A DNA stretch of 32,021 bases from Coriobacteriia bacterium (lineage in GTDB: Bacteria > Actinomycetota > Coriobacteriia > Anaerosomatales > Kmv31), in the NCBI GenBank assembly GCA_014859305.1, contig JACUUM010000031.1, positions 1-32,021 of the forward strand, given 5' to 3'. A program made the position numbers and the translations under genes. Shown here piece after piece: positions 19,873 through 24,076 of this stretch. Positions within the stretch are counted from its first letter, which is position 1, and each line of letters opens with the position of its first letter. The notes beneath the pieces are model-generated. The model worked only from the letters and a program-made list of their open reading frames with translations. It did not search any database and had not been told where the DNA came from.

Positions 19873-20496
19873 CTATCCGGCCGATCCCGCCGGCTCCCGG
19901 GACGACTCCCCGAGCACGTATCGAGTGAACCGCGAGATGACGATGTTCTCTCCCAGCTTCCCGACGAGCTCACCCAGGTACCGCTCGATCGTGATGTCGG
20001 GGTTCTTCACGTAGGCCTGCTCCATGAGACAGACCTCCTTGAAGAACTTGTCGAGACGGCCCTCGGCGATCTTGGCCTGGATCCGCTCGGGCTTGCCGGT
20101 GGCGGCCGCCTGCGCCATGTAGATGCCGCGCTCGTGCTCGACGAGCTCCGCGGGGACCTCCTCGCGCCGGACGAACAACGGCGCGGCGGCCGCGACGTGC
20201 ATCGCGACGTCCTTGACGAATGCCTGGAAGTCCGCGTTACGGGCGACGAAGTCGGTCTCGCAGTTCACCTCGACGAGCACGCCGATGCGGCCGCCCGCGT
20301 GTATGTAGGAGCCGATGACGCCCTCGTTGGCGGCCTTGCCCGCCCGTTTGGCGAGGTCGGCGAGCCCCTTGGTACGCAGGATGTCGACGGCCTTCTCCAC
20401 GTCCCCGCCGGCCTCGGCGAGGGCGGCCTTGCAGTCCATCATGCCCGCGCCCGTACACTCGCGCAGGTCCTTGACCATCTTGGCGGTGATCTCCAT
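19873..20496 (-). CDS. tsf: elongation factor Ts (short form)
   Basis: Nucleotide exchange factor for EF-Tu. The 207-residue product has both family signatures, LRECTGAGMMDCKAAL near residue 11 and EVNCETDFVARN near 78. It keeps an abbreviated C-terminal domain like the Thermus-type short EF-Ts, compared with about 283 residues in E. coli. The ATG at 20496 follows an AGGAGGA run at about 7 nt. It lies 90 nt after rpsB, the normal partner gene, and is followed by a strong hairpin. Confidence 0.95.
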   Translation of the reverse strand: MEITAKMVKDLRECTGAGMMDCKAALAEAGGDVEKAVDILRTKGLADLAKRAGKAANEGVIGSYIHAGGRIGVLVEVNCETDFVARNADFQAFVKDVAMHVAAAAPLFVRREEVPAELVEHERGIYMAQAAATGKPERIQAKIAEGRLDKFFKEVCLMEQAYVKNPDITIERYLGELVGKLGENIVISRFTRYVLGESSREPAGSAG

Positions 20497-20586: not shown

Positions 20587-21429
20587 CTACTCTGCCGGCG
20601 CCTGCTCGGCCTCGGGCGCGGCAGCCTCCGTTTCCGGGCTCTCGGCCGCCGCCGCCGGCTCGGAGGGCTCCGGCTCCCGCGCCTCGACGATCGGCTCCTC
20701 GGGCGCCGGGGCCGCGGGCGCGGGCTCCTCGGCGGCCTCGGGGCCTTCGAGCGCCGCGCGCCCCTCGGCGGCGGCATCCGCTATGACGCGGCACATCAAA
20801 CCGACGGAGCGGATGGCGTCGTCGTTGCCGGGGACGACGAAGTCCACTTCATCCGGGTCGGCGTTCGTGTCGACCACCCCGATGATCGGGATCCGCAGCC
20901 GTCTCGCCTCGGCCACGGCGATGGCCTCGCGCTTGGTGTCGATCACGAACAGCGCGCCGGGCAGCTCGCGCATCTCCCGGACGCCGGCGAGGTTGCGCAG
21001 GAGCTTCTCGTACTCCCCACGCAGCTTGAGCGCCTCCTTCTTGGGGAGCGCGGCCATGGAGCCGTCCTCCTCCATGCGCTCCAGCTCCTCGAGCCGCGAC
21101 ACGCGGGTGCGCATGGTGACGAAGTTCGTGAGCATCCCGCCGAGCCAGCGCTGATTCACGTAGGGCTGCCCGGAGCGGACGGCCTCGGCCGCCACAGGCT
21201 CCTGGGCCTGTTTCTTCGTCCCGACGCAGAGGACCTTCTCGCCGCGTGCCGTGAGCTCGCGCACGAACCGGTAGGCCGCGTCCAGCTCGCGCAGAGTGCG
21301 CTGCAGGTCGAGTATGTAGATCCCGTTGCGCTCGGTGAAGATGTACGGCTTCATCTTCGGGTTCCAGCGGCGCGTCTGGTGCCCGAAGTGGACCCCGGCT
21401 TCGAGCAGGGTCTTCATGGAGACGGTCAT
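20587..21429 (-). CDS. rpsB: 30S ribosomal protein S2 with acidic C-terminal tail
   Basis: Small-subunit protein at the head-body junction. The 280 residues contain [44 protein letters not shown], and [22 protein letters not shown], all diagnostic for S2. From about residue 228 to the end is an Ala/Glu/Pro-rich extension ([13 protein letters not shown]...). The ATG at 21429 has GGGAGGT 9 nt upstream. An extended -10 promoter lies about 130 nt upstream, leaving a long leader that might bind S2, although I cannot identify a known autoregulatory fold. Confidence 0.96.
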
Positions 21430-21619: not shown

Positions 21620-22246
21620 TCATCCCTTGAACGACCCTACGCGGACGGATCGCCCCCGGCTAGAGACTCCTCTGGCAGGCGGTGCAGACGAGGTGCGCGT
21701 CGAACCAGCTCGGCCTGTCCTCCTTGGGCAGCAGCTCGATCGCGAGCTCCGCCTGACAGGCCGGGCACCAGAACCTCCGCTGGAGCTTGAGGTGCTCGAC
21801 GAGGGCGTCCGCGCCGGCTCATGGTCCCGTACGGACAGCGTGAACGCCGGCTGTCCGCTGGCACGTCCCGAGATGTAGTCGAGCGTCAGCCGGATCTTCG
21901 TAGCGACGGCGGCCGGTTTCGCCTGGTTCTTGATCAGGTAGTCGACCGCCCCGAGGGACAGGCCGCGCTCGACGTCGGCCTCCTGTCCGAGGTTCGACAG
22001 GATGATGACCGGGATGTGCTCGGTATCCGGTTCCTGCTTGAGGGTCTCGAGTACCTCCAGCCCCCCGACCCTCGGCATGATCAGGTCGAGCAGCACGAGG
22101 TCCACCGGCTCGGAGCGGACGATATCGAGGGCCTCCAAGCCGTCGGAGGCCGTCGTCACCTCGTATCCCTCCTGTGCGAGCTTGTCCGCGTAGATGCGTC
22201 GAAGGAGCTCCGTGTCCTCGACCACGAGTATCCGTTCTCCGGCCAA
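21620..22246 (-). CDS. CheY-like response regulator, C-terminus apparently frame-disrupted
   Basis: Receiver domain of a two-component system. Residues 1-125 show the acidic pocket E10/D11, phosphoacceptor D54 in LLDLIMP, S84 and K106, so phosphorylation is expected. The uninterrupted frame runs to 208 residues. After SVRDHE (about 143) it turns into Ser/Arg/Pro-rich sequence with no domain character. In the -1 frame the same DNA encodes a convincing zinc ribbon ending at 21660, so a one-base deletion, a sequencing error or a recent frameshift is likely. The restored product would be about 195 residues. The start is TTG at 22246, with GGGAGGGAGG just upstream. It lies 58 nt after a WhiG/FliA-type sigma gene. 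No DNA-binding output domain is visible. Confidence 0.85.
21660..21818 (-). other. out-of-frame zinc-ribbon tail of the response regulator
   Basis: Read in the -1 frame relative to the receiver, this stretch encodes [19 protein letters not shown], continuing to [11 protein letters not shown] and a TAG at 21660-21662. The CX2C-X23-CX2C pattern is a typical zinc ribbon. The frame is closed upstream by a TGA at 21819-21821 and has no ATG, GTG or TTG before the ribbon, so it cannot be an independent gene. Inserting one base after E143 joins it in frame to the receiver. Confidence 0.75.
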
Positions 22247-22304: not shown

Positions 22305-23102
22305 CTAGGCTCGCGGCACCCGGCCCTGCGCCGAATGCAGTCGCGCCCGCAGGCGAAGCACGGACTTCGTGTGCAGCTGGCTCACCCGAGACTCGGTCAC
22401 TCCGAGGACCTCACCGATCTCCTTGAGCGTCAACCCTTCGTAGTAGTAGAGCGCGATGACGATCTTCTCGCGCTCGGGCAGCCGCTCTATCGCGCCGGCG
22501 AGGATGTCCTTGATCTCCTCGCTCTCGAACGCGGCCACCGGGTCCTCCGCGGACTCGTCCTGGATGGATCCGATGATGCTCGACCGCTCGTCGCGGTCGC
22601 CTGCCGTCCAGAGCTCCTCGAAAGAGACCACCGACGCGTAGGAGAGCTTCGCGAGGACGCCCTGGAGCTCCTTCATCGAGATCCCCATCTCCTCGGCGAC
22701 CTCGGCGTCCTCCGGGACACGGCGGAGGCGGTTCTCGAGGGTGATGTAGGCCTGCTCGATCTCTCGCGCCCTCGCGCGGACGGAGCGGGGGACCCAGTCC
22801 ATCGCCCGGAGCTCGTCGATGATCGCGCCCTTTATGCGGGCGATCGCGTAGGTCTCGAACTTGATCCCGCGCTCGGGCTCGTACTTCTCGATCGCGTCGA
22901 TCAGGCCGAAGATGCCGTAGCTGATCAGATCGGCGGTCTCGACGGTCTGCGGGAGGTTGGAGGAGAGGCGCCCGGCGACGTACTTCACCAGCGGCGAGTA
23001 GTTGAGGATGAGCTGCTCCCGCGCGGCCGGGTCCGCCGTCTCCTTGTATGCCGCCCAAAGGGTGGCCGTGTCGGTGCGAGCGTCCTGCTTCAAGTACAAC
23101 AA
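22305..23102 (-). CDS. whiG: RNA polymerase sigma factor, WhiG/FliA (sigma-28) family
   Basis: Group 3 sigma factor. The 265-residue product has region 2 sequence [16 protein letters not shown] and [40 protein letters not shown]. Region 3 follows with [17 protein letters not shown]. Region 4 is [41 protein letters not shown]. The match to Streptomyces WhiG and flagellar FliA is strong, but which regulon it controls (motility, sporulation or other) cannot be told. The frame begins with TTG TTG TAC TTG, so the exact start (23102 or 23099) is uncertain; GAGGGG lies just upstream. Location between a xer recombinase and rpsB recalls both whiG-rpsB in Streptomyces and sigD-rpsB in Bacillus. Confidence 0.92.
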
Positions 23103-23176: not shown

Positions 23177-24076
23177 TCAGGCCCGAGGGTGAGCTCTGTG
23201 ATGCACGTCACGTAGCCGCTTGGTGCTCAGATGAGTATAAATCTGGGTGGTAGACAGCGCAACGTGACCGAGGAGTTCCTGCACGGTGCGCAGGTCGGCG
23301 CCGCCTTCGAGCAGATGGGTGGCGAAGGTGTGGCGCAGCGAGTGCGGTGTCAGGCCGAGACCGACGGCGGCGGAGTCAAGGTGTCGCGCCATCATCCGGC
23401 GCGCGCCTCCGGCGGAGAGCCGCCCGCCGAGACGGTTGAGGAACAGCGCATCGACGTGCTTGTCCTTCAGCAGGGCCGGCCTGCCCTCCGACAGGTACGC
23501 TGCGACCCTCGCGCAGGCCGCGCGGTGCAGCGGCACGATGCGCTCCCGGGACCCCTTGCCGAAAGCGCGCAGTTGCCCAGCCGCCAGATCGACGTCGCCG
23601 ACGTCGAGCCGCTCGAGCTCACCGATCCGCAACCCGGCGGCATAGAGGAGTTCGAGGATGGACCGGTCGCGAAGGCCGAGCGGTCTGGCCGGGTCGGGGG
23701 AGTCGAGCAGCGAGGCGAGCACGACGCCAGGGACGACGCGCGGGAGGCGTGCCGGCTGCTTCGGCGCGGAGAGCACGGTGGCGGGGTTGGCGTCGGTCTC
23801 ACCGCGCAGCACCAGGAAGTCGAGGAACGAGCGGACCGCTGAGAGCCGCCGCGCTATGGTGCGGCGCGAGTAGCCGGCGCGGTCGAGCTCGCCGAGGAAG
23901 AGCCGGAGACGCTTGTGGCCTGGCGCGACGGGGTCGACCTCTGTCCGCGAGGCCCAGTCGAGGTAGGCTGCGAGGTCCGAGGCGTATGCGGCGACGGTGT
24001 GCCGCGAGGCGGCACGCTCGACCCGCAGGTGCTCGAGGTACGCGTCGACGAGCGCCTCGCCCCGCCGGCCGGTCAT
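23177..24076 (-). CDS. xerC: tyrosine recombinase XerC/XerD
   Basis: Site-specific recombinase, most likely for chromosome-dimer resolution at dif. The 299-residue protein has an N-terminal SAM-like core-binding domain and a catalytic domain. R150 (AGLRIGE), K174, H245 and R248 ([12 protein letters not shown]), H271 ([13 protein letters not shown]) and nucleophile Y280 are all present. The ATG at 24076 overlaps the trmFO stop as ATGA. The trmFO-xerC order matches Firmicutes. No dif-like site is evident in the window. XerC versus XerD naming is by synteny. Confidence 0.93.

Follow-up and report, generated by a model that had tools for sequence, protein, structure and literature searches.

The window, the whole 32,021-nucleotide stretch of DNA analyzed here, comes from a 2.13 Mb draft genome (G000; 76 contigs, 98% complete), and the relatives with which it is compared belong to other families of the same order. 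A response-regulator gene lies in it between genes for a sigma factor and a ribosomal protein. The features of this locus, from upstream to downstream, are the following:

23177–24076, minus strand: xerC/xerD-type tyrosine recombinase, preceding the sigma gene (Pfam Phage_integrase, E = 1.4e-41; synteny)
22305–23102, minus strand: WhiG-type sigma factor, directly upstream of the regulator (NCBIfam NF004935 WhiG, 387 bits vs a cut-off of 343; Pfam)
21620–22246, minus strand: response-regulator open reading frame (ORF), 208 amino acids plus stop, TTG start (Pfam Response_reg match)
21821–22246, minus strand: receiver domain and linker, 142 amino acids (active-site residues and conserved columns in relatives)
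21808–21827, minus strand: junction at which the frame is offset by one base from that of every relative (frameshift-tolerant alignment)
21663–21818, minus strand: zinc ribbon, CX2C-X23-CX2C, in the −1 frame, ending at TAG 21662–21660 and with its own start codon absent
21623–21817, minus strand: Ser/Arg-rich, out-of-frame tail in place of the ribbon, with its stop at 21622–21620
20587–21429, minus strand: rpsB (ribosomal protein S2), directly downstream of the regulator (Pfam Ribosomal_S2, E = 1.3e-94; synteny)

The order xerC-whiG-regulator-rpsB is fixed across the bacterial order, and the window's gene sits at the same position between whiG and rpsB. The sigma protein of the window exceeds the curated cut-off for WhiG. 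If the order is OPB41/Anaerosomatales, as we infer, its two cultured members have been described as non-motile and non-sporing (PMC9686372). The elongation factor Ts encoded in the window (19873–20496, minus strand) is a short form of about 207 amino acids; that of relative G012 is a 300-amino-acid form with an extra middle segment, and two forms of this factor thus occur within one order.

The N-terminal part of the regulator is a complete receiver. Pfam PF00072 (Response_reg) matches residues 6–110 of the ORF (E = 1.7e-26; 93 bits vs a gathering score of 30.2), and the acidic pair E10/D11, the phospho-acceptor D54, S84, Y103, and K106 are all present. The original prediction held that this frame loses its protein character after residue 143, and we place the change at about residue 142, past which the frame runs into the Ser/Arg-rich tail. 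As assembled, the gene does not encode a receiver and a ribbon in one open frame; four cysteines with CX2C-X23-CX2C spacing are present in the window, but in the −1 frame. No kinase gene adjoins the regulator at this locus, and neither a partner kinase nor a target was identified.

Translation and a start-codon scan agree with the earlier description of a clean, startless ribbon in the −1 frame that ends with a stop at 21660. This frame is shut upstream by a TGA at 21821–21819, and ATG, GTG, and TTG are all absent between that TGA and the ribbon; only ATC and CTG occur, inside the ribbon itself. The ribbon frame therefore cannot be translated alone in the ordinary way. A ribbon-only profile built from 29 relatives nonetheless matches exactly the 21818–21663 stretch, at 87.6 bits (E = 9.5e-25). 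The GC content of the three codon positions in the −1 frame is 0.67/0.47/0.96, a coding pattern similar to the 0.71/0.37/0.87 for the receiver, 0.73/0.46/0.94 for rpsB, and 0.65/0.42/0.93 for the sigma gene. Judged from its sequence, the ribbon in the −1 frame is more than a chance motif. A search of the rest of the window's genome yielded no second copy of the ribbon.

We searched 248 genomes of the class and found the gene in 51 others, all of the same order. The receiver and ribbon lie in a single stop-free open frame over the full profile in 50 of these 51 relatives, and in the remaining one (G116) the gene is cut by a contig edge. Relatives that lack an in-frame ribbon were not found, and among genomes with the gene only that of the window stops at residue 142. 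This outcome favors the original prediction, which had listed such relatives among the things that would refute it. The four cysteines, the receiver active-site residues, and several other ribbon positions are invariant or conserved across the relatives. Aligned to its G012 orthologue with frameshifts allowed, the window's gene requires exactly one break and no gaps; the break falls after ...VRDHE and before AGADALVEH..., where the window lacks one base. It is very likely that the locus holds a conserved receiver-plus-zinc-ribbon gene and that, in this assembly, its frame breaks where the two domains meet. One homologue was also found in another class of the phylum (genome G527, locus L249:1501–2229, minus strand). 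Its neighbors, judged by eye, are an acetyl-CoA-synthetase-like gene and a polysaccharide-deacetylase-like ORF rather than whiG or rpsB.

The profile score of the ribbon downstream of the break has not decayed. The ribbon score minus the receiver score, calculated with leave-one-out profiles, is −0.27 for the window's gene, which ranks 12 of 38 and lies inside the spread seen among intact copies in relatives (−0.52 to +0.35). The window's ribbon departs from its relatives at two near-fixed positions, where an invariant Gly is replaced by Ser and a near-invariant Pro by Thr. These substitutions could hint at relaxed selection, although they are too few to claim decay. Because the ribbon still reads as normal, conserved, and undecayed, the break is either very recent or not real.

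We also took a census of frameshifts in the assembly. Genes called by codon-position GC in 800 kb of G012 (675 genes) were compared with 1.23 Mb of the window's genome, giving 403 orthologues and 133,797 aligned codons. Nine raw frameshift candidates emerged. Those re-aligned with frameshifts allowed, the window's gene aside, were traced to junctions between genes, to antisense ORFs, or to poor alignment at the N-terminus, and two N-terminal overlaps (C1 and C17), very short or weak, were judged by pattern alone. Among the 403 orthologues, a convincing frameshift is left only in the window's gene, and we reject the idea of a generally indel-ridden assembly. That the draft is largely free of frameshifts makes an isolated error at this locus less likely but does not eliminate it. 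A second assembly of the same species was also sought; no contig matched at more than 68% identity, and the nearest genomes in the comparison are related at the level of the order.

The regulator is missing from the whiG-rpsB gap in 15 genomes of the order (loci L218, L221–L224, and L227–L236), a recurrent loss that, like the conserved position itself, the original prediction did not note. In these genomes whiG, xerC, and rpsB are still in place, and the gap from whiG to rpsB is about 180–380 nt vs about 760–880 nt where the regulator is present. Mapped on a sigma-protein tree, presence and absence of the regulator require six changes, at least three of them forced by well-supported branches. 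The gene has thus been lost repeatedly while the sigma factor was kept, which indicates that it is dispensable and makes an early stage of natural loss credible at the locus in the window. Strict coupling of the regulator and the sigma factor, in the sense of co-loss, is rejected, as genomes that lack the regulator still have the sigma factor.

We consider two of the possible explanations to be highly improbable. Programmed −1 ribosomal frameshifting could yield a receiver-only and a receiver-ribbon product from one gene; −1 is the usual direction of such events, and the GC-rich downstream sequence can fold. No X-XXY-YYZ slippery heptamer occurs between 21860 and 21770, however, and programmed frameshifting is not needed, because in all relatives the ribbon already shares the receiver's frame. 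The ribbon could also form an independent small gene that follows a gene for the receiver alone, as it occupies a frame of its own. This arrangement has scarcely any probability given the lack of an ATG, GTG, or TTG after the upstream TGA and the fusion of receiver and ribbon in all relatives.

The weight of probability falls on two other readings, both put forward in the original prediction. A real and very recent natural frameshift, which would mark the onset of gene loss or a variant reduced to its receiver, in the lineage or in part of its population, is slightly better than an even proposition. It is in keeping with a dispensable gene that relatives have repeatedly lost at exactly the whiG-rpsB slot, and with an assembly that is otherwise clean in the census of orthologues. 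On the other hand, a disrupted copy is found in none of 50 relatives, and the undecayed ribbon means that the mutation would have to be very young. An assembly or consensus error, in which the gene is whole in the organism and the assembled sequence lost one base in a GC-rich stretch, is a serious contender at somewhat under an even chance. The absence of decay in the ribbon, the intact coding composition, the integrity of the gene in every other genome that carries it, and the draft state of a genome in 76 contigs are all consistent with such an error. Against it, indel errors are rare in this draft, in which no other convincing frameshift was found, and the junction contains no homopolymer longer than two bases. 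Overall, we lean slightly toward a natural mutation over a consensus error. The further claim that the frameshift is both real and retained, such that a two-domain regulator has turned receiver-only and its loss is caught in the act, is improbable.

A predicted model of the protein from the relatives has a mean pLDDT of 81.5 and comprises a receiver fold, a flexible, low-confidence linker at residues 127–138, a short helix at residues 143–153, and a ribbon of two strands; the ribbon modeled alone gives a pLDDT of 81.4. The receiver model is best matched by CheY/RR468-like structures. Foldseek returned no significant match for the ribbon fold, the best having E = 0.2 and the weak ones being mainly Rpb9/TFIIS-type ribbons. 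In sequence, the ribbon is weakly similar to PDB 6zxw chain H, a 60-amino-acid ribbon protein (E = 0.0011) that appears to be Trm112-like in our reading of the chain's sequence. The pattern of the four cysteines and the two strands predicted for the ribbon suggest that these residues would bind zinc.

The ribbon is likewise not covered by curated families. No Pfam zinc-ribbon family scored above its gathering score, the best being PF23548, PF25164, and PF05129, all below threshold, and no NCBIfam model for an output domain exceeded its cut-off (Trm112_arch NF038101, 15.7 bits vs a cut-off of 77). TackOD1 (PF18551) gave no match at E ≤ 1 in one search or at E ≤ 0.01 in another, and the ribbon has only four cysteines. 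The view that a receiver joined to a zinc ribbon without a DNA-binding domain is a nonstandard layout holds insofar as the architecture is unusual and no family covers the ribbon above cut-off; it is not unique, however, as comparable proteins exist in the archaeal REC-TackOD1 proteins, in two receivers of Patescibacteria with a different ribbon, and in the one homologue from another class.

The archaeal REC-TackOD1 proteins carry a receiver followed by a Cys-rich output domain with 11 conserved cysteines and of unknown function (PMC5847659). They resemble the present family in this arrangement, in the presumed zinc binding of the output domain, and, in their simplest form, in the lack of a helix-turn-helix (HTH) domain; TackOD1 itself spans about 200 amino acids with its 11 cysteines, whereas the present ribbon has about 50 amino acids and four. 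Stand-alone receivers such as CheY, Spo0F, and Thermotoga RR468 share the receiver fold, the phosphorylation residues, and the absence of a DNA-binding domain. CheY and Spo0F have no zinc ribbon, in contrast to the relatives of the window's gene, which carry a C-terminal ribbon on a linker. The two Patescibacteria proteins (L077:1–639 and L080:5001–5633), found among 58 receiver matches inspected, also combine a receiver, a linker, and a CxxC..CxxC ribbon, but the ribbon is a different one (FCPNCGAHLKSNYKFCPKCGY; FCPNCG...FCPKCG) and the linker is longer. Trm112-like and Rpb9/TFIIS-like ribbons share the four-Cys ribbon, with the weak sequence resemblance to 6zxw chain H and the Rpb9-type Foldseek resemblance described above; the scores lie far below curated cut-offs and the Foldseek match is not significant. 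The receiver-ribbon family represents a small new variation on response-regulator architecture.

By domain logic, the family could tentatively be viewed as a phosphorylation-gated protein-binding adaptor, a reading to which we assign somewhat less than an even chance. Phosphorylation of D54 would change the receiver, and the changed receiver may expose or position the ribbon, which could then bind a protein partner, possibly the transcription machinery. Transcription is the first guess for the partner because WhiG adjoins. As the gene is read in the window, only the receiver and the Ser/Arg-rich tail would be made, and the ribbon output would be lost. If the frameshift is real and retained, it would remove a regulator that may otherwise couple a phosphorelay to transcription by WhiG or to the neighboring translation genes.

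By itself, the frame break is an ordinary matter of local annotation; automatic annotation here would yield a 208-amino-acid receiver with a nonsense tail, and the ribbon would be missed. The family consists of orphan response regulators whose output domain is a short zinc ribbon and whose genes have a fixed whiG-rpsB address in an almost uncultured order of Coriobacteriia. It offers a small case, open to testing, of response-regulator action that does not involve DNA binding by an HTH domain.
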